Source: Saccharomonospora cyanea NA-134
GTDB taxonomy: Bacteria > Actinomycetota > Actinomycetes > Mycobacteriales > Pseudonocardiaceae
Assembly (NCBI RefSeq): GCF_000244975.1
Contig: NZ_CM001440.1
Coordinates: 2,464,325-2,528,324, forward strand
DNA length: 64,000 bases
Direction of reading: 5' to 3'
The notes below the pieces were generated by a model, which saw only the letters and a program-made list of their open reading frames with translations, had not been told where the DNA came from and did not search any database. The stretch's first letter is position 1. The number at the start of each line of letters is the position of its first letter. The position numbers and the translations under genes are program-made. Of this stretch, positions 8,611 through 16,318 are shown piece after piece.

Positions 8611-9748
8611 CGTCAGCGGGAGCTCCTTCTTCGCGCATCGCCTCGCCACGGGGCTGGCCACGCGCGGGCACGACGTGCACGTGGTCTGTGCGTCCGAGAC
8701 GGGGCCCCGCAAGACCGTGCGTGAGTCCGGTGTGTGCCTGCACCGGCTGCGCTCGGTACCGCTCGTCATCCACCCGAGCGTGCGGTTCGTGCCACCGCCC
8801 GGAGTCCCTGCGGTCCTGCGCAGACTCGTCGCGTCGGTGCGGCCGGACGTACTGCACACACAGGATCACTTCACCATCGGCCGTGCGGCCGTCCGCGCGG
8901 CCGCACGGCAGGACGTTCCCGTCGTGGCGACCAACCACTTCATGCCCGACAACCTGCTGCCCTACCTCCCGCGTCGCCTGCACCGGCCGGTGGCCGACGT
9001 GGCGTGGCGGGATTTCCGGCGCGTCTACGACCGCGCCGACCACGTCACCACGCCGACGAGGGCGGCGGCGAACCTGCTCGCCGCGAACGGTTTCGCGGGT
9101 TCCGTGGAACCCGTCTCGTGCGGTGTGGACACGGAGCGTTTCTCGCCGGACACGGCGCCGCCTCACGTCCACCGCCGAGCACTCGGGCTCCCCGACGTGC
9201 CCACGGTGGTCTACGTCGGCAGGCTCGACGCGGAGAAACGGCTCGACGAGCTGGTCCGCGCGTTGCCGAGGCTGTCGGTCGGTGACGCCCAGCTCGTGCT
9301 CGCGGGCACCGGCACGCGGCGCGCTGAACTCGAACTCCTCGCCGCGCGAGAGGGTGTCGAGCACCGCGTGCGGTTCCTCGGTTTCGTGCCCGACGAGCGG
9401 CTTCCGACGGTGTACCGGGCGGCGGACGTGTTCGCGATCCCGGGGGTGGCCGAGCTGCAGAGCATCGCGACGCTGGAAGCCATGGCCTGCGCGCTGCCGG
9501 TCGTCGCGGCCAACGCCGTCGCGCTACCGCACCTGGTGTCCCACGAGGACAACGGTTACCTCGTCGAGCCGGGGGACGTCGCCGGGCTGGCCGCCGCGCT
9601 CGACGCGATCCTCACCTCGGCCGACCTCCGGCGTCGTATGGGAGGGCTGAGCAGGACGATCGCCCTGACCCACGACGTGAACCGCACGCTGACGCGGTTC
9701 GAGGAGATCTACCACGCTGTCGCGAGCTCGCGATCGAATCAAGGTTGA
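8573..9748 (+). CDS. glycosyltransferase family 4 (GT-B)
   Basis: A 391-residue retaining GT-B enzyme. The N-terminal acceptor domain starts RVLIATDTYPPDVSGSS and shows VLHTQDHFTIGRAA. The C-terminal donor domain has VVYVGRLDAEKRLDELV, the middle VRFLGFVPDE, and the EX7E-like signature ELQSIATLEAMACALPVVA. This variant has a Glu-Leu-Gln start where many family members have EG(F/L)G. It probably transfers a nucleotide-activated hexose to a lipid or glycan; mannosyltransferases of the PimB/MgtA kind look similar. The ATG overlaps the end of the upstream DMT transporter by 38 bases, suggesting coupled expression. Confidence 0.88.
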   Translation: MRVLIATDTYPPDVSGSSFFAHRLATGLATRGHDVHVVCASETGPRKTVRESGVCLHRLRSVPLVIHPSVRFVPPPGVPAVLRRLVASVRPDVLHTQDHFTIGRAAVRAAARQDVPVVATNHFMPDNLLPYLPRRLHRPVADVAWRDFRRVYDRADHVTTPTRAAANLLAANGFAGSVEPVSCGVDTERFSPDTAPPHVHRRALGLPDVPTVVYVGRLDAEKRLDELVRALPRLSVGDAQLVLAGTGTRRAELELLAAREGVEHRVRFLGFVPDERLPTVYRAADVFAIPGVAELQSIATLEAMACALPVVAANAVALPHLVSHEDNGYLVEPGDVAGLAAALDAILTSADLRRRMGGLSRTIALTHDVNRTLTRFEEIYHAVASSRSNQG

Positions 9749-9781
9749 CGCTGCGGCGTGTCCTGGATCACACTGGAGTTG

Positions 9782-9811
9782 TGCATATCGAAACTCGATG
9801 CGCAATACGCA
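9782..9811. promoter_or_regulatory. dyad region upstream of the one-carbon operon
   Basis: TGCATATCGA (9782-9791) and TCGATGCGCA (9795-9804) form an 8-of-10 inverted repeat. The right arm continues into a second dyad, TGCG-CAATA-CGCA (9799-9811). Position about 75-100 bases before the first gene and the short TGCG/CGCA arms resemble IclR-type operators. This is the only obvious regulatory signal for the 6.4-kb operon. Confidence 0.45.
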
Positions 9812-9883
9812 ACAAGCGTACCCGCAGGGCTCACCTTGCGAGCGTGACCGAGATCGTCGACAGGGCGTGAATAGAGGTGCCCC

Positions 9884-11119
9884 ATGGCCGAGGTCGTTCA
9901 GCCGTCCCTCACGCGGCAGTCCCCCGCCGTGTCGTCCGGAACCGGGGCCACCGTCGTACCGGAGCCGTCCATCCTGCTGTACCCACGACTGAGGAAGTCG
10001 CCCTACTTCTGGAAATCCCGTGCGCACGGGGCCGCGTGCTACAGCGTCTACAACCACACCTATCACCCACGGCACTACGGCGACCCCGTCGGGGAGTACT
10101 GGGCACTGCTGGAGGGCGTCACCCTGTGGGACGTCGGCGTCGAACGCCAACTGGAGATCACGGGCCCGGACGCGTTCGACTTCACCAACATGCTCGTACC
10201 CCGCGACCTCACGAAGTGTGACGTGGGGCAGTGCAAGTACGTGTTCGTCACCGCGCCCGACGGCGGCATCGTCAACGACCCCGTGCTGCTGAGGCTGGAG
10301 CCCGACCGCTTCTGGCTCTCACTGGCCGACAGTGACGTGGGGCTGTGGGCGATGGGACTCGCCCACGCGGGCGGCTGGGACGTGACGATCCGGGAGGCCG
10401 ACGCCGCGCCGCTGCAGGTGCAGGGCCCCAAGGCGAAGGACGTGCTGAGCGACCTGTTCGGCGCGTCGATCCTGGACGTGCCGTACTACCGGCTGCGCGA
10501 GTACGACCTCGACGGCATGCGCGTCGTGGTCAGCCGCACCGGTTACTCCGGCGAGGTGGGCTACGAGATCTATCTTCTCGACGCCTCCCGCCACGCCGAG
10601 CGGCTGTGGGACCGCGTGTGGGAGGCGGGCAGGCCCTACGGGCTGCGGCCGATCGGCCCCTGCCACATCCGCCGCATCGAGGCGGGCATGCTGGCCTACG
10701 GCTGTGACATCACGCTCGACACCAACCCGCTCGAGGTGGGCTACGACTACCGCTGGATGGTCGACCTCGACCAGGAGGCCGACTTCGTCGGCAAGGAGGC
10801 GCTGCGCCGCGTGAGGGCGGAGGGCGTGCGCAGGCTCCTGGTGGGGCTGGAGATCGAGGGCACACCGCTGGGCAGCTACAACGACGGATCGATGGTCGAG
10901 CCGTTCGACGTGTTCGCGGGCGGAGCGCAGCCGGTGGGGGCGGTGACCAGCGCGTGTCACTCACCCCGGCTGGACGCCAACATCGGCCTGGCCATGGTGC
11001 CGGTGGAACTGAGCGGTGTGGGAACGCACGTCACCGTCGCGACCCCCACCGGCCGCCGGGAGGCGAGGGTGGTGGACAAGCCGTTCGTCGACCCCCGCAA
11101 GGAAACGCCGAAGCACTGA
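9884..11119 (+). CDS. GcvT-family THF-dependent methyltransferase/demethylase
   Basis: A 411-residue aminomethyltransferase-fold protein. It shows GVTLWDVGVERQLEITGPDA at the start of the GcvT domain, the folate-pocket GPKAKDVLSDLFG, the conserved SRTGYSGEVGYEIYL, and a GcvT C-terminal barrel (DFVGKEALRRV, GAVTSACHSPRLDANIGLAMV). True GcvT proteins are about 360 residues and start directly at the fold; this one has a 60-residue extension (LRKSPYFWKSRAHG). That places it nearer the DmdA/LigM/DesA group, which moves a methyl group from S- or O-methyl substrates to tetrahydrofolate. Here it is followed by metF-like and fhs genes, supporting demethylation to 5-methyl-THF. The methyl donor is not identifiable. 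Confidence 0.82.
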   Translation: MAEVVQPSLTRQSPAVSSGTGATVVPEPSILLYPRLRKSPYFWKSRAHGAACYSVYNHTYHPRHYGDPVGEYWALLEGVTLWDVGVERQLEITGPDAFDFTNMLVPRDLTKCDVGQCKYVFVTAPDGGIVNDPVLLRLEPDRFWLSLADSDVGLWAMGLAHAGGWDVTIREADAAPLQVQGPKAKDVLSDLFGASILDVPYYRLREYDLDGMRVVVSRTGYSGEVGYEIYLLDASRHAERLWDRVWEAGRPYGLRPIGPCHIRRIEAGMLAYGCDITLDTNPLEVGYDYRWMVDLDQEADFVGKEALRRVRAEGVRRLLVGLEIEGTPLGSYNDGSMVEPFDVFAGGAQPVGAVTSACHSPRLDANIGLAMVPVELSGVGTHVTVATPTGRREARVVDKPFVDPRKETPKH

Positions 11120-11140
11120 AAGCCGGGTGAGAGGTCGACG

Positions 11141-12007
11141 ATGAGACGCCGCGACCACGCACGACGCCCCTTCGAGGTACCCGCTGCCCTCGCTCCCTGG
11201 CTGCCCGAGGCGCGGTTCGAGGTGCTGCCACTGCCTGGCGTGCTCGACCAGACGGCGCGGCTGGCCGAGGGCACGACGGTCACCGTCACCGCCTCGCCGT
11301 CGCGTGGCCTCGACGCGACGGTGGAGTTGTGCGAGAAGCTCGCCGCGCAGCGATTGCACGCGGTCGCCCACCTCGCCGCCCGGCAGCTCCACGACGCTGT
11401 CCACCTGCGCGACGTGCTCGACCGGCTCGCGGGTTCCGGTCTCGACGAGGTGTTCGTGATCGCCGGAGACGCGCGAACCCCGGTGGGCCCGTTCGGTGAC
11501 GGCCTGTCACTGCTGCGGGCGATCGAGGAGTCGGGCCGCAGGCCGCGGCGCGTCGGCGTGCCGTGCTATCCCGAAGGGCACCCGACGATCCCGGAGGACG
11601 CCCTGTGGACCGCTCTCACGGCCAAGCAGTCCCACGCCGACTACGCGGTGAGCCAGCTGTGCTTCGACGCGACCGTCGTGTGCCGGTTCCTCCGTGCCGC
11701 ACGTGAGCGAGGTGTGACGCTGCCGGTGCGGATCGGGCTGGCCGGTGTGGTGGACCCGGGAACCCTGCTGCGGATCGGCTCCCGGATCGGCGTCGGGGAC
11801 TCCCTGTCGTTCTTGCGGAAGAACCGGTCGGTCCTCGCCGGACTCGCCCGGCCCAACCGCCACGACCCCGGCCGGTTCCTCACCGCGCTCGCCGGGGAGC
11901 TGGCCGGCGGTGACTGCGCGCCCGCCGGGCTGCACTTCTACACGTTCAACCGTGTCACCGCCACCGCCGAGTGGCTGGACGCGGTGCGTCCACCCCGCGC
12001 CGAGTGA
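11141..12007 (+). CDS. metF: methylenetetrahydrofolate reductase (MetF-like)
   Basis: A 288-residue TIM-barrel flavoprotein. It retains TVTVTASPSRGLDATVELCEKLA near the N terminus, HLAARQLHDAVHLRDVLDRL for folate binding, the FVIAGDARTPVGPFGDGLSLL segment, VGVPCYPEGHP, and GLHFYTFNR at the C terminus as in MetF enzymes. In biosynthesis it reduces 5,10-methylene-THF to 5-methyl-THF. Placed after a GcvT-like demethylase it could run in the oxidative direction, recovering methylene-THF from methyl-THF. It starts 21 bases after the previous stop. It is divergent from housekeeping MetF, so an operon-specific paralogue is likely. Confidence 0.82.
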   Translation: MRRRDHARRPFEVPAALAPWLPEARFEVLPLPGVLDQTARLAEGTTVTVTASPSRGLDATVELCEKLAAQRLHAVAHLAARQLHDAVHLRDVLDRLAGSGLDEVFVIAGDARTPVGPFGDGLSLLRAIEESGRRPRRVGVPCYPEGHPTIPEDALWTALTAKQSHADYAVSQLCFDATVVCRFLRAARERGVTLPVRIGLAGVVDPGTLLRIGSRIGVGDSLSFLRKNRSVLAGLARPNRHDPGRFLTALAGELAGGDCAPAGLHFYTFNRVTATAEWLDAVRPPRAE

Positions 12008-12020
12008 GGAGCGAGCGGCT

Positions 12021-13712
12021 ATGCCCACGAACCTGGAGATCTCCCGCAACACCGTCCGCAAACCGCTCGTCGACGTGGCGGCGGGCATGGGCATCGAGCC
12101 GCACCTCGTCGAGCCCTACGGGAACGCGGCCGCGAAGCTGTCGCTGGACACGGTGGCCGAACTGTCCGACCGGCCGAAGGCCCGGTACGTCGTCGTGTCG
12201 TCGCTGACGCCGACCCCTCTGGGCGAGGGAAAGACAACCACCACGGTCGGGCTCGGACAGGGCTTCGCCCATCTGGGCAAACGCGCCGTCATCGCCATCC
12301 GGCAGTCGTCGATGGGGCCGACGTTCGGCATCAAGGGTGGTGCGGCCGGTGGCGGCTACGCGCAGGTGGTCCCGATGGAGACCGTGAACCTGCACCTCAC
12401 CGGCGACCTGCACGCGGTCACCAGCGCCCACAACCTGCTGGCGGCGATGCTCGACAACCACCTGCACAAGGGCAACGCGCTCGACATCGACCCGTACAGC
12501 ATCACCTGGCGGCGGGTGCTCGACGTCAACGACCGGGACCTGCGCCAGATCGTCACCGGCCTCGGCGGCAGGCAGGACGGAATCCCGAGGCAGACCGGGT
12601 TCGACATCACCGCCGCGAGCGAGGTGATGGCGGTGCTGGCGTTGTGCTCGTCGCTTCCGGACCTGCGGCGCAGGCTCGGGCGGATCGTCGTCGGCTACGA
12701 CCGGGCGGGTGCCCCGGTGACGGCGGAGCAGCTGCGGGCGGCGGGAGCGATGTGCGTGCAGTTGCGGGAAGCCGTCAAGCCCAACCTCATGCAGTCGGTC
12801 GAGCAGACCCCCGTGTTGATCCACTGTGGACCGTTCGGCAACATCGCGCACGGCAACTCGTCCGTGCTGGCGGATCTCATCGGTATCCGCTGCGGTGACT
12901 ACCTCGTCACCGAGGCCGGTTTCGGGGCCGACATGGGGGCCGAACGGTTCTTCAACATCAAGTGCCGCGCGTCCGGTCTCGTTCCCGACGCCGCCGTCGT
13001 GGTGGTCACCGTCCGCGCGCTGAAAGCACACTCGGGCCGGTACCGCGTGGTGGCGGGCAAGCCCTTGCCCGAGGAGATGCTGCGGGAGAACCCCGACGAC
13101 GTGTACGCGGGGGCGGCGAACCTGCGCAAGCAGCTCGCCAACATCCGCGCGCACGGGGTGACACCGGTGGTGGCGGTCAACGCCTTCGCGGACGACGCCG
13201 ACAGTGAACACCAGGCGATCCTCGACATCGCGGACGAGGAGGGGGTTCGGGCGGCCGTCAGCACACACGTCGCGAAGGGCGGCAAGGGTGCGGCCGAACT
13301 GGCCGACGCGGTGGCCGCGGCCTGCGAGGAGGACGGTGGGTTCCGGTACCTGTATCCCGACGAGCTGCCGCTGGCGGACAAGATCGACGTGGTGGCGCGG
13401 CGCATGTACGGCGCCGACGGGATCGAACTCAGCCCCACCGCGCGAAGGCAGCTCGACACCTACACGCGGTGTGGTTTCGGCTCGCTGCCCGTGTGCATCG
13501 CCAAGACGCACCTGTCGCTGTCGGACGACCCGAGCCGCAAGGGCGCGCCCACGGGCTGGCGGCTTCCGGTGCGGGAGGTGCGGGCTTCCGTCGGGGCGGG
13601 GTTCGTCTACCCCGTCTGCGGGGAGATGCGCACGATGCCGGGCCTGTCGTCGCACCCGGCCGCGGAACGCATCGACATCGACGACGCCGGTCAGGTGGTG
13701 GGACTGGCGTGA
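12021..13712 (+). CDS. fhs: formate-tetrahydrofolate ligase
   Basis: A full-length 563-residue Fhs. The P-loop TPLGEGKTTTTVGL, SSMGPTFGIKGGAAGGGY, NLMQSVEQTPVLIHCGPF, TEAGFGADMGAE and the C-terminal GAGFVYPVCGEMRTMPGL are all present. The enzyme interconverts formate, ATP and THF with 10-formyl-THF. Working in reverse it would release formate and gain ATP from methyl-derived one-carbon units. ATG 12021 follows GGAGCGAG and starts the family N terminus; the frame is open upstream but that part overlaps metF out of homology. No folD gene is in the operon, so the methylene-to-formyl step must come from elsewhere. Confidence 0.96.
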   Translation: MPTNLEISRNTVRKPLVDVAAGMGIEPHLVEPYGNAAAKLSLDTVAELSDRPKARYVVVSSLTPTPLGEGKTTTTVGLGQGFAHLGKRAVIAIRQSSMGPTFGIKGGAAGGGYAQVVPMETVNLHLTGDLHAVTSAHNLLAAMLDNHLHKGNALDIDPYSITWRRVLDVNDRDLRQIVTGLGGRQDGIPRQTGFDITAASEVMAVLALCSSLPDLRRRLGRIVVGYDRAGAPVTAEQLRAAGAMCVQLREAVKPNLMQSVEQTPVLIHCGPFGNIAHGNSSVLADLIGIRCGDYLVTEAGFGADMGAERFFNIKCRASGLVPDAAVVVVTVRALKAHSGRYRVVAGKPLPEEMLRENPDDVYAGAANLRKQLANIRAHGVTPVVAVNAFADDADSEHQAILDIADEEGVRAAVSTHVAKGGKGAAELADAVAAACEEDGGFRYLYPDELPLADKIDVVARRMYGADGIELSPTARRQLDTYTRCGFGSLPVCIAKTHLSLSDDPSRKGAPTGWRLPVREVRASVGAGFVYPVCGEMRTMPGLSSHPAAERIDIDDAGQVVGLA

Positions 13713-13723
13713 GGGATGCCCGA

Positions 13724-13772
13724 GTGCGGGTGTCCCGCAGGAACACCGGGTGCGGGTGTCCCGCAGGAACAC
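13724..13772 (+). repeat. tandem 23-bp repeat with two small hairpins before the FAD/GcvT gene
   Basis: Two identical 23-bp copies at 13724-13746 and 13750-13772 (26-bp period) each contain GCGGG-TGT-CCCGC, a 5-bp stem with a 3-base loop. The ribosome binding site AGGAGG follows immediately and the next gene starts at 13784. The element may modulate translation or protect the mRNA between fhs and the dehydrogenase gene. Confidence 0.7.
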
Positions 13773-13783
13773 AGGAGGTGGCC

Positions 13784-16318
13784 ATGAGTGAGCTTCCCGC
13801 CGAGGCCGACGTCGTCGTCATCGGAGCCGGGATCGTGGGCAACTCGGTGAGCTATCACCTCGCCGAGGCGGGCTGGCGGCGCATCGTCCTGCTCGACAAG
13901 GGACCGTTGCCGGACCCGGGCGGGTCCACGGGGCACGCGTCGAACTTCATCTTCCCCGTGGACCACTCGAAGGAGATCACCGCGCTCACGGTGGACTCGA
14001 TGCGTCAGTACGAGAAGCTCGGCGTGCTCACCACGTGCGGTGGCTTGGAGCTCGCTCGCACTCCGGAACGGGTCGACGAGTTGCGGCGCCGGGTGGCGTC
14101 GGCTCGCGCGTACGGTGTGGCGGCGGAACTCGTCGACGCGGCGCGCGTGGGGGAGCTGGTGCCGTTCGTGGACACCGACCTCGTGCTCGCGGGTTTCTGG
14201 ACTCCGTCGGTCGCGGTGGTGGACCCCGTCGAGGCCGGGGCGTCGCTGCGGGCGCAGGCGAGCGAGCTGGGAGCCCTCACCGTGGTGCCGAACACCGAGG
14301 TCACCGGCGTCCGGGTGGTGGACGGGCGGGTCCGTGGCGTCGAGACCGACGCCGGGGAGGTGGCCACCGACACGGTGGTGGTCGCGTGCGGCGTGTGGAG
14401 TCCGCACATCGCGGCGATGGCGGGAGCGCGCATCCCGCTGACTCCGGCCGTGCACCAGATGATCGACGTCGGACCGATCCCGGAGCTGGAGCGCACGCAC
14501 ACCGAGATCGCGTACCCGCTCGTGCGGGACATGGACGCGATGATGTACGAGCGGCAGAAGTGGGCGAACCTGGAGATCGGCTCCTACGCGCACCGGCCGA
14601 TCCTGCACGATCCCGAGGAGATCCCCTCGATCGAGGCCGCGGCGCTGTCGCCGACGCAGCTGCCGTTCACTCAGGCCGACTTCGCCCCGCAGTTGGAGGA
14701 CGCGCGCGCCCTGTTCGGGTCGATCCTCGACACCCCGCACGCCGAGGTCCGTCATGCCATCAACGGGTTGCTGTCGCTGACTCCGGACGGTGCGCCCGTA
14801 CTGGGGGAGACCCCGGAGGTGCGGGGGCTGTGGTCGGCGGCCGCGGTGTGGATCAAGGAGGGCCCGGGCGTCGGGCGGATGCTCGCGCAGTGGATGACCC
14901 ACGGCCGTACCGAGATCGACCTGCACGGCGCCGACATCGCCCGCTTCTACCCGCACCAGCGCACCAGGGCCGCCGTGCGCGCGCGAGCGGCGGAGGGGTT
15001 CAACAAGACCTACGGCATCGTGCACCCGAGGGAGCAGTGGGAGTCGGTCCGACCGCAGCGCGTCTCGCCGTTCCACGCGCGCGAGACCGACCTGGGCGCG
15101 GTGTTCTTCGAGGTCGGCGGGTGGGAGCGCCCGCAGTGGTACGACTCCAACGCGCCGCTGCTGGAGGAGTTCGGCGACCGGGTGCCGCGGCGCGAACACG
15201 AGTGGGACGCACGCTGGTGGTCGCCGACCGTCGAGGCCGAGCACCTGGCGATGCGCGAGCGTGGGGCGATGATCGACGTGTCGGCGTTCGCGCAGTTCGA
15301 CGTCGCCGGGCCGGGGGCTCTCGACTACGTGCAACATCTCGTGGTCGCTCAGGTGGACCGGCCGGTCGGCTCGTTGGTCTACACACCAGTGCTGACGCCT
15401 GAGGGCGGGTTCCGCAGCGACCTGACGATCGTGCGGCTCGGGCAGCGACACTTCCGCGTCATCACCGGCGCGGCCGACGGCGCCCGGGACGCGTTCTGGT
15501 TCACCCGGCACCTGCCGGACGACGGTTCGGTGGTCCTCACCGACGTCACCTCGGCGGTGTGCACGCTGGGACTGTGGGGGCCGCGGGCCCAGGACGTCCT
15601 CACCGCCGCCACCGAGGACGACGTCTCGGACGCCGCGCTGCCGTTCGGACGGGCCAGACGGATCACCGTGGACACGGTGGACGTGCTGGCGCTGCGGGTG
15701 TCCTACGTGGGCGAGTTCGGGTGGGAGCTGCACGCGCCGTTCGAGTTCGGGCAGCGGCTGTGGGACGTCGTCGCGGAGGCGGGCGTGTCCGCCGGTGTCG
15801 TGCCCGCCGGCATCGGCGTGTACGGCACCACGGGCCGGCTGGAGAAGGGCTACCGCCTGATGGGTGCGGAGCTGGACGCCGAGCACGACCCCGTGGAGGC
15901 GGGGCTGGCGCTGCCGAAGGTGAAGTCCGCCGACTTCGTGGGCAAGGAGGCCTACCTGGCCGCGCGCGAGAGCGGACCCGCCGCCGTGCTCTGCACGCTC
16001 GGCATGGGCGCGCCGCACGAGCACGTGGACGCCGACGGCGTCGTGCGCTACCCCCAGGGTGGTGAGCCGGTCCTGACCACGGCAGGGGAGCGGATCGTCG
16101 ATCGCCGCGGGCGGCCCTCGCAGGTGACGAGCGCCGGGCCGGCACCGTCGCTGGGCACGTACCTGCTGTTCGCCTACCTGCCGCGGGAACTCGCCGTCGA
16201 GGGCACGCGGCTGTCGGTCGAGTACCTCGGTGAGCGCTATCCGGCCACCGTGGCGCGCGTGGGCCGTAAGCCGCTGTTCGATCCCGACGACGCGCGGATG
16301 AAGGGTGGAGCGCGGTGA
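13784..16318 (+). CDS. FAD-dependent dimethylglycine/sarcosine dehydrogenase-like protein with GcvT domains
   Basis: An 844-residue fusion. Residues 1-370 are a DAO-type FAD domain (VVVIGAGIVGNSVSYHLAEAG; STGHASN, whose His is placed like the covalent FAD ligand of DMGDH/SARDH; LSLTPDGAPVLGE). A linker FAO_M domain follows (FNKTYGIVHPREQWES). Residues about 430-840 form GcvT and GcvT_C domains (AMIDVSAFAQFDVAGP, VSYVGEFGWELHAP, DFVGKEAYLA). Relatives oxidise N-methyl amines and pass formaldehyde to THF as 5,10-methylene-THF. It is the fourth gene of the one-carbon operon. ATG 13784 has AGGAGG seven bases upstream; the frame is open further upstream within fhs. N,N-dimethylglycine, sarcosine or another methylated amine are candidate substrates. 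Confidence 0.9.
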   Translation: MSELPAEADVVVIGAGIVGNSVSYHLAEAGWRRIVLLDKGPLPDPGGSTGHASNFIFPVDHSKEITALTVDSMRQYEKLGVLTTCGGLELARTPERVDELRRRVASARAYGVAAELVDAARVGELVPFVDTDLVLAGFWTPSVAVVDPVEAGASLRAQASELGALTVVPNTEVTGVRVVDGRVRGVETDAGEVATDTVVVACGVWSPHIAAMAGARIPLTPAVHQMIDVGPIPELERTHTEIAYPLVRDMDAMMYERQKWANLEIGSYAHRPILHDPEEIPSIEAAALSPTQLPFTQADFAPQLEDARALFGSILDTPHAEVRHAINGLLSLTPDGAPVLGETPEVRGLWSAAAVWIKEGPGVGRMLAQWMTHGRTEIDLHGADIARFYPHQRTRAAVRARAAEGFNKTYGIVHPREQWESVRPQRVSPFHARETDLGAVFFEVGGWERPQWYDSNAPLLEEFGDRVPRREHEWDARWWSPTVEAEHLAMRERGAMIDVSAFAQFDVAGPGALDYVQHLVVAQVDRPVGSLVYTPVLTPEGGFRSDLTIVRLGQRHFRVITGAADGARDAFWFTRHLPDDGSVVLTDVTSAVCTLGLWGPRAQDVLTAATEDDVSDAALPFGRARRITVDTVDVLALRVSYVGEFGWELHAPFEFGQRLWDVVAEAGVSAGVVPAGIGVYGTTGRLEKGYRLMGAELDAEHDPVEAGLALPKVKSADFVGKEAYLAARESGPAAVLCTLGMGAPHEHVDADGVVRYPQGGEPVLTTAGERIVDRRGRPSQVTSAGPAPSLGTYLLFAYLPRELAVEGTRLSVEYLGERYPATVARVGRKPLFDPDDARMKGGAR

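Follow-up and report, generated by a model that had tools for sequence, protein, structure and literature searches.

A DmdA-like protein as candidate glycine betaine:tetrahydrofolate methyltransferase of a folate-linked operon in Saccharomonospora cyanea NA-134

Glycine betaine is known to enter demethylation through GbcAB, Bhmt or corrinoid systems, and the molecular mechanisms of this first demethylation had stayed elusive according to a 2025 PNAS paper (PMC12478193). Tetrahydrofolate (THF)-dependent demethylases and dimethylglycine dehydrogenase have been described (PMC9404685, PMC5082570), DmdA is a GcvT-like, redox-neutral methyltransferase (PMC5395565), and glyA-soxBDAG-purU clusters of Colwellia have been discussed together with betaine breakdown (PMC3691474). 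Two Pelagibacter loci place unassigned GcvT-family genes beside metF or betaine genes and can be likened, by description only, to the system reported here: SAR11_1265, a dmdA-like gene beside metF for which the authors speculated on a role in a second demethylation of dimethylsulfoniopropionate (DMSP), and SAR11_1303/1304, an aminomethyltransferase and a monomeric sarcosine oxidase beside a betaine transporter (PMC3160333). We analyzed a four-gene operon of Saccharomonospora cyanea NA-134, located in a stretch of 64,000 nucleotides (the window, C1:2464325-2528324 of a single-contig 5.41-Mb genome), whose first gene encodes a DmdA-like protein that may transfer a methyl group from glycine betaine directly to THF. 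A search of the titles and abstract openings of open-licence PMC papers, with subscription papers and bioRxiv outside its scope, returned no DmdA- or GcvT-type glycine betaine methyltransferase, and the words DmdA and GcvT have 0 occurrences in PMC12478193.

The four genes all run in one direction on the forward strand, as the original prediction had described, and are separated by 21, 13 and 71 bases. The protein encoded by gene 1 (9884-11119), P0001 of 411 aa, is by profiles, tree, predicted structure and residues a DmdA-like THF methyltransferase, and we propose it as a glycine betaine:THF methyltransferase. Gene 2 (11141-12007, 288 aa) encodes a short, divergent methylenetetrahydrofolate reductase (MTHFR), assigned by Pfam and comparison with the PDB and proposed to work in the oxidative direction, and gene 3 (12021-13712, 563 aa) a formate-THF ligase (FTHFS), assigned by Pfam and NCBIfam and proposed to work in the direction that forms formate and ATP. 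Gene 4 (13784-16318, 844 aa; one automated gene call placed its start six bases further upstream) encodes a fusion of a flavin adenine dinucleotide (FAD) oxidoreductase with GcvT of the dimethylglycine oxidase/dehydrogenase kind, a putative dimethylglycine (and perhaps sarcosine) dehydrogenase on the strength of its Pfam domains, its match to structure 1pj5 and its active-site positions. The Pfam domains are GCV_T and GCV_T_C in gene 1, MTHFR in gene 2, FTHFS in gene 3, and DAO, FAO_M, GCV_T and GCV_T_C in gene 4.

The best NCBIfam match of gene 1 is the DMSP demethylase model NF009133, with 326.5 bits, below the curated cut-off of 410; the GcvT model TIGR00528 gives 165.4 bits, also below its cut-off (235.85), and the host has a GcvT of its own at a separate locus (L070), beside gcvP- and gcvH-like genes read from the sequence. 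An AlphaFold2 model of the gene 1 protein (30 sequences, mean pLDDT 82, residues 1-22 below 50) finds its best structural match in DmdA 3tfh (TM-score 0.83/0.92, 30% identity, root-mean-square deviation (rmsd) 2.4 Å), with GcvT next. A tree of 73 rows, built by a quick search and containing several long branches that the program flagged, unites gene 1 with its orthologues in a single clade (SH-aLRT 99). This clade sits within a DmdA-like group of 52 rows, which is separate from the GcvT, SoxA, dimethylglycine dehydrogenase (DMGDH) and trimethylamine N-oxide demethylase domains. Gene 1 therefore falls outside ordinary GcvT, in keeping with the original prediction. The 60-residue N-terminal extension noted there is, in its first half, indeed a stretch of about 30 variable residues; the segment from about residue 31 to 60 is conserved and aligns with DmdA, so that most of the conserved part is ordinary for the DmdA-like group. 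With the DmdA of Pelagibacter and Ruegeria gene 1 thus shares the fold, the N-terminal segment, an N-D-P motif (residues 131-133) and membership in one large clade apart from GcvT, and by analogy its methyl transfer to THF is probably redox-neutral. An initial reading of Asn131-Asp132 as loss of the GcvT catalytic Asp was dropped, since alignment with Asp552 of dimethylglycine oxidase places a kept Asp at 132.

The order of the first three genes, THF methyltransferase, short MetF and FTHFS, matches what we take to be the ligM-metF-ligH order of Sphingobium SYK-6, with the same logic of the module, and the closest PDB entry to the gene 2 product is 7xg9, presumably the MetF of that strain. These likenesses, the first of them given in the original prediction, favor an operon for a LigM-type, THF-dependent aryl O-demethylase. 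Nevertheless, such an operon is very improbable: gene 1 scores only 57.5 bits against LigM (cut-off 580) and 63.1 bits against DesA (cut-off 800), and its model fits LigM with an rmsd of 5.7-8.5 Å, compared with 2.4 Å for DmdA. The supposed kinship with LigM and DesA is thus not supported, the window methyltransferase coming from another branch of the family, and an aromatic methyl ether is unlikely as the substrate.

A second account, suggested by the fact that DmdA is the best match in both family and fold, is that gene 1 is a demethylase of DMSP or another sulfonium, joined by chance to dimethylglycine genes. One residue in particular argues against it. Trp171 of DmdA is a key residue for DMSP (PMC7487153), and gene 1 has Tyr at this position. 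Among 85 collected relatives the position is occupied by Tyr or Phe in 57 rows (57 loci) and by Trp in 28 rows (21 loci), and an extra aromatic loop (for example GYDYRW, GYGFEKTW or DYGYEW) is present in 55 of the 57 Tyr/Phe rows, those of L127 and L128 being without it. The two types differ in their surroundings as well: genes for DMGDH, sarcosine oxidase or monomeric sarcosine oxidase (MSOX) accompany 51 of 57 Tyr/Phe loci, one of them the window, but only 3 of 21 Trp loci, and 14 of 19 phylum-level Tyr/Phe loci (a figure derived as 51/57 minus 36/37 family loci and the window). In addition, Pelagibacter DmdA (3tfh) groups at support 100 with Trp-bearing actinomycete proteins, apart from gene 1, whose neighbors point to the breakdown of betaine and not of DMSP. 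Together with the score below the DmdA cut-off, these differences make a sulfonium substrate quite improbable, and the comparisons of sequence indicate that gene 1 is a branch of its own in the DmdA-like family, being neither LigM, nor GcvT, nor DmdA itself.

The Trp-type relatives have features of their own. In several loci from other families of Actinomycetota (L117, L123, L124, L131 and L132, and also L110 and L125), Trp-type DmdA-like genes come in twos, in tandem or close together. The first five adjoin an amidohydrolase-like gene, two of them (L123, L124) also a GbcA-like Rieske cluster, and the two-copy loci give no MTHFR, FTHFS or DMGDH match apart from a DMGDH-query match in L110. Three further Actinomycetota proteins (L119, L135, L136) bear the DmdA-like motif GWS(K/R)QGG and join Pelagibacter DmdA in the tree; judged by sequence, they are possible DMSP demethylases outside the Proteobacteria.

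With a threshold of E 1e-60, gene 1 has matches in 82 of 249 genomes from its family and in 68 of 396 from a sample of the phylum, the latter count including Trp-type paralogues. Neighborhoods were compared by tblastn in three sets: 37 loci of the family, from 37 of its 82 genomes with a match (excluded are L053, a 44% relative of Trp type, and L070 and L071, which have no gene 1); 40 phylum-level loci (orthologues and Trp-type paralogues); and 80 named loci (the best 80 of 589 confirmed stretches), some of these 80 being truncated at contig ends. The controls were 20 arbitrary 20-kb stretches, all from genomes carrying gene 1. The named loci include actinomycetes of the genera Saccharomonospora, Prauserella, Haloechinothrix, Actinomycetospora, Saccharopolyspora, Actinopolyspora, Nocardiopsis, Phytoactinopolyspora, Nesterenkonia, Brachybacterium, Arthrobacter and Microbacterium, Halomonas and its kin, and a few assembled genomes labelled Chloroflexi, Acidobacteria, Thermomicrobium and others.

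The operon is well conserved in the family, where MTHFR was found in 37 of 37 loci, FTHFS in 34 and the FAD/GcvT fusion (DMGDH query) in 36, while every neighborhood query gave 0 of 20 in the controls; the grouping of the four genes exceeds chance. The same family loci contain SoxA in 16, SoxB in 16, EtfA in 13, EtfB in 15 and IclR in 20 cases. In the 80 named loci the folate and demethylation genes number 62 (MTHFR), 51 (FTHFS), 68 (DMGDH), 16 (SoxA) and 14 (SoxB), and the other genes 19 (EtfA), 21 (EtfB), 15 (GbdR), 32 (IclR) and 11 (betaine aldehyde dehydrogenase (BADH)-like); the phylum-level loci have MTHFR in 15, FTHFS in 14, DMGDH in 17 and SoxA in 4. Two layouts prevail in the family. 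In that of the window, gene 1 is followed by MTHFR, FTHFS and the DMGDH-like gene, and in many relatives then by EtfB and EtfA, sometimes with IclR; in the other, the DMGDH-like gene precedes gene 1, MTHFR and FTHFS, and the region upstream usually contains a GntR-type gene and, divergently oriented, a soxB-soxD-soxA-soxG set. (EtfB, EtfA, SoxD, SoxG, GntR and IclR were named from sequence by eye, and SoxA and SoxB by NCBIfam matches above cut-off on one locus, L104, with 1267.9 and 628.4 bits.) Gene 1 is 64-71% identical between the two layouts, which have the Tyr/Phe residue and the aromatic loop in common.

These neighborhoods bear on a third account, that gene 1 is a GcvT-like accessory of the FAD enzyme, catching onto THF the methylene groups or formaldehyde released from dimethylglycine or sarcosine. 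Its GcvT-type fold and its frequent position next to dimethylglycine or sarcosine oxidation genes would fit, and 18 of the 80 named loci show no MTHFR in the available stretch, as this account allows. However, the FAD/GcvT fusion and SoxA each already bear a folate domain, and methylene-THF alone needs no MTHFR, yet MTHFR is present in all family loci and in 62 of the 80 named ones. The presence of MTHFR in the operon is explained if the product of gene 1 is methyl-THF which, unlike methylene-THF, must first be oxidised. We therefore regard an accessory role as improbable.

A few loci tie the DmdA-like branch more directly to betaine, and three of them contain nearly all genes of the proposed pathway. 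In one (L109) the order is a GMC gene (choline-dehydrogenase type by sequence), ProV, permease, OpuAC, aldehyde dehydrogenase, DMGDH, gene 1, MTHFR, SoxG and SoxA. In another (L108), OpuAC, a permease, an ATPase, GMC and a BADH-like gene (647.8 bits vs 668.6) are divergent from DMGDH, gene 1 and MTHFR, the last followed by a second GcvT-like protein and then a monomeric sarcosine oxidase-like protein. A third (L128) has gene 1, MTHFR, SoxB, SoxD, SoxA, a SoxG-like piece and FTHFS, with a divergent BCCT gene (604.4 bits vs 650). Halomonas loci have a GbdR-type regulator beside gene 1, between FTHFS and DMGDH; it scores 438.6 bits (cut-off 480, next best model 140.6), and NCBIfam describes GbdR as a regulator of choline metabolism. 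An FTCD_C-type gene adjoins some gene 1 orthologues.

In six loci (L107, L108, L111, L112, L138, L140) such a further GcvT-like protein precedes one resembling monomeric sarcosine oxidase. The GcvT-like member in L108 scores 235.2 bits, just below the GcvT cut-off of 235.85, and the pair resembles SAR11_1303/1304 as described in PMC3160333.

The remaining genes of the window operon are consistent with a catabolic module. Gene 2 reaches 46.4 bits with Pfam MTHFR, above the cut-off of 24, and 61.4 bits with the NCBIfam equivalog, whose cut-off is 293.7; it is a divergent short form. A separate canonical MTHFR is encoded at C1:3756420-3757262 (294.4 bits vs 40.2 for the operon copy), and the operon MTHFR accordingly looks catabolic. 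Gene 3 matches the FTHFS model NF010030 with 783.1 bits, above the cut-off of 652. Gene 4 matches the dimethylglycine oxidase structure 1pj5 at E 6.3e-152, with DAO, FAO_M, GCV_T and GCV_T_C all above cut-off. It shares with Arthrobacter globiformis dimethylglycine oxidase and mammalian dimethylglycine dehydrogenase the domain plan and four active-site positions, His48, His225, Tyr259 and Asp552 (A. globiformis numbering), which are kept in 53 (one gap), 54, 54 and 53 of 54 rows of gene 4 relatives, respectively; it differs from them as a divergent branch, and the electron transfer flavoprotein (ETF) genes beside its relatives suggest a dehydrogenase. For His225 and Tyr259 the roles come from the title of a work cited in PMC5082570, and the D552A mutant is named in the title of a PDB entry; the number of His48 (FAD link) was counted on the gene 4 alignment.

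Taken together, the four genes suggest the following pathway. In the first step, the gene 1 protein would convert glycine betaine and THF to dimethylglycine and 5-methyl-THF in a reaction that, like that of DmdA on DMSP, would be redox-neutral and would need neither cobalamin nor oxygen. In the second, the short MTHFR, judged by its family, would oxidise 5-methyl-THF to 5,10-methylene-THF. In the third, a putative dehydrogenase/cyclohydrolase coded elsewhere would convert methylene-THF to 10-formyl-THF, from which FTHFS would free formate and make ATP; the route from methyl-THF through methylene-THF to formate and ATP put forward in the original prediction, with formyl-THF as a further intermediate, is probably correct. 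In the fourth, the FAD/GcvT fusion, given its family and kept active-site residues, would convert dimethylglycine to sarcosine, loading methylene-THF and passing its electrons probably to ETF rather than O2, an acceptor proposed on account of the EtfB-EtfA pair adjacent in related operons. For sarcosine there are two candidates, the gene 4 enzyme and another protein of the host that resembles monomeric sarcosine oxidase.

Several arguments single out glycine betaine as the substrate. An operon that stands beside sarcosine oxidase should belong to a demethylation series ending in sarcosine and glycine, and glycine betaine is the common compound that yields dimethylglycine on losing one methyl. 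A quaternary nitrogen needs methyl transfer, while tertiary and secondary amines need oxidation, and the mixture of enzyme types therefore fits betaine demethylation. The combination of a methyltransferase with an oxidative N-demethylase, which the original prediction had called unusual, is indeed present but is accounted for by successive demethylation of one betaine; the substrates listed there (dimethylglycine, sarcosine, an ether, a sulfonium) omit glycine betaine, which fits best. The reaction proposed for gene 1 is that of GbcAB, Bhmt and the corrinoid MtgB/MtgBCD (PMC12478193), but its acceptor would be THF directly, without O2, cobalamin or homocysteine. On balance we lean toward the operon being a regulated catabolic operon for glycine betaine. 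To the more specific proposal, that a new DmdA-like branch, marked by Tyr/Phe at the Trp171 position and by the extra aromatic loop, is a cobalamin-free, oxygen-free glycine betaine:THF methyltransferase opening a wholly folate-linked pathway to formate and ATP in many Actinomycetota and in Halomonas, we assign a probability of about 0.58. While the parts and the logic are already known, novelty would lie in the pairing of this enzyme with this substrate and in a first step that needs neither oxygen nor cobalamin.

The gene content of the host agrees with the proposal in part. The genome has BCCT genes at five places, plus OpuAC. Naming from sequence gives two groups: BCCT, GMC and aldehyde dehydrogenase genes cluster at L158, where a TetR-type gene is divergent, and a second aldehyde dehydrogenase is paired with BCCT at L159. 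It contains no GbcA-like Rieske protein at E 1e-50 and no heterotetrameric SoxA above cut-off (best E 1.4e-52), and neither the host nor 79 further genomes with gene 1 has an MttB-family protein at E 1e-10 (0/80). One monomeric sarcosine oxidase-like protein scores 310.6 bits (cut-off 257). There are two PF02574 matches. The first, in a frame of 1383 aa that lies some 4 kb away from the canonical MTHFR, was taken as MetH; the second appears by eye to be an MmuM-like homocysteine methyltransferase.

A number of observations weigh against the proposal of a glycine betaine:THF methyltransferase. We know of no proven cobalamin-free direct methyl transfer from a quaternary ammonium to THF, and a Bhmt may be present in the host. 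Next to the window operon itself there is no gene for sarcosine oxidase, ETF or a betaine transporter. Transporter or choline-oxidation genes lie near gene 1 in only 4 of 80 named, 5 of 40 phylum-level and 0 of 37 family loci; 11 of the 80 named loci lack DMGDH, sarcosine oxidase and MSOX (5 of these are contig-cut, 6 are not), and the 18 without a visible MTHFR count on the same side. Furthermore, gene 1 is not simply the sole betaine demethylase wherever it is present: a genuine GbcA above cut-off occurs in 11 of the 12 Halomonadaceae genomes with gene 1 that were examined (12 of 15 such gene 1 loci), and a weaker GbcA-like Rieske protein in 46 of 82 same-family gene 1 genomes, where most of the matches listed span about half the model and none listed reaches the cut-off. 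In Halomonas, gene 1 may thus provide a second, perhaps oxygen-independent route, or act on a different substrate. Of 13 actinomycetes compared alongside, none was above the GbcA cut-off and 5 had weaker Rieske matches.

In the 249 same-family genomes, SoxA (positive at a best E of ~1e-200 or less; presence lists compiled by hand) is found in 65 of 82 genomes with gene 1 and in 68 of 167 without it (Fisher p 7.9e-9, uncorrected for kinship). Within the SoxA-bearing genomes, GbcA-like matches are somewhat rarer when gene 1 is present (46/65 vs 60/68; p 0.017, likewise uncorrected). Simple replacement of GbcA by gene 1 was considered and set aside as not clean, being contradicted by the Halomonadaceae that carry both. 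As a separate observation, the SoxA-like proteins of some genomes match more weakly (E ~1e-228 to 1e-232 in G160, G185 and G207; 840-865 bits in others such as G181 and G218), the comparison value for sarcosine oxidase alpha being 1000-1180 bits.

The FAD enzyme raises the question of whether the window operon acts on glycine betaine or on another betaine. Gene 4 belongs to a divergent branch, being 43% identical to the FAD enzyme of the branch beside sarcosine oxidase (L034), and it scores 510.9 bits against dimethylglycine oxidase, compared with 889.4 for the L034 enzyme and 735.3 for that of L109, so that its substrate may have shifted. Moreover, the window branch has no sarcosine oxidase next door, and SoxA (near or above cut-off) is missing from 10 of 19 genomes with the window layout but from none of the 19 in which the FAD gene precedes gene 1. 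The same chemistry could then serve a different betaine. The most plausible would be stachydrine (proline betaine) or a related amino acid of the N,N-dimethyl or N-trimethyl type, with gene 1 yielding an N-methyl amine and methyl-THF and the FAD/GcvT enzyme stripping the last methyl. The identity of gene 1 across the layouts and their common Tyr/Phe and aromatic-loop signature speak against such a change of substrate, and the layouts with sarcosine oxidase best fit glycine betaine. The host also has a choline-to-betaine-type cluster and a monomeric sarcosine oxidase-like protein that could take sarcosine. Thus another betaine is unlikely as the substrate of the window operon, though it deserves to be taken seriously, and glycine betaine remains our preferred substrate.

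The region upstream of gene 1 suggests how the operon may be controlled. By eye, a promoter-like pair is formed by TTGACG (9745-9750) and CACACT (9769-9774) on the forward strand, with an 18-base spacer, and similar pairs lie upstream of many window-type orthologues; a consensus promoter scan gave 0 promoter-like sites, and there were two terminator-like sites, vs a shuffle mean of 1.3. Two forward-strand copies of GTTG-N9-CAAC, each with one mismatch, follow at 9778-9794 and 9797-9813, the second beginning 19 bases after the first, and their conservation marks them as the halves of a candidate operator. All 21 of the 21 window-type loci carry at least one such repeat (≤1 mismatch) ahead of gene 1, whereas it occurs in 21 of the 343 regions lying upstream of other genes at those loci. 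Because the motif was itself derived from the gene 1 upstream regions, the count shows conservation and not independent discovery. The conserved candidate operator indicates that gene 1 is likely the first gene of a regulated transcript. Expression is probably governed by a repressor at this tandem repeat near the start site, a form of control proposed because an IclR-type gene ends several related operons.

Elsewhere in the window we noted a direct repeat, CGGGTGTCCCGCAGGAACAC, with two copies in the gap ahead of gene 4 (13713-13783), while Rfam and tRNA scans of the window gave no matches. The segment 52001-60000, part of which carries oligopeptide-transporter-like genes by eye, shows strong composition skew, with GC skew of 0.24 and 0.21 and AT skew of -0.27 and -0.18; GC skew in the rest of the window is at most 0.11 in size.

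Glycine betaine is among the commonest osmolytes, and a direct betaine:THF methyltransferase, if the proposal is true, would add another chemistry for its demethylation, in which a quaternary nitrogen gives up a methyl group to a folate enzyme with no cobalamin involved. Such a pathway would save ATP through FTHFS and avoid free formaldehyde, and it would explain how betaine could be used by actinomycetes that have no GbcA-like, Mtg-type or SoxA proteins.

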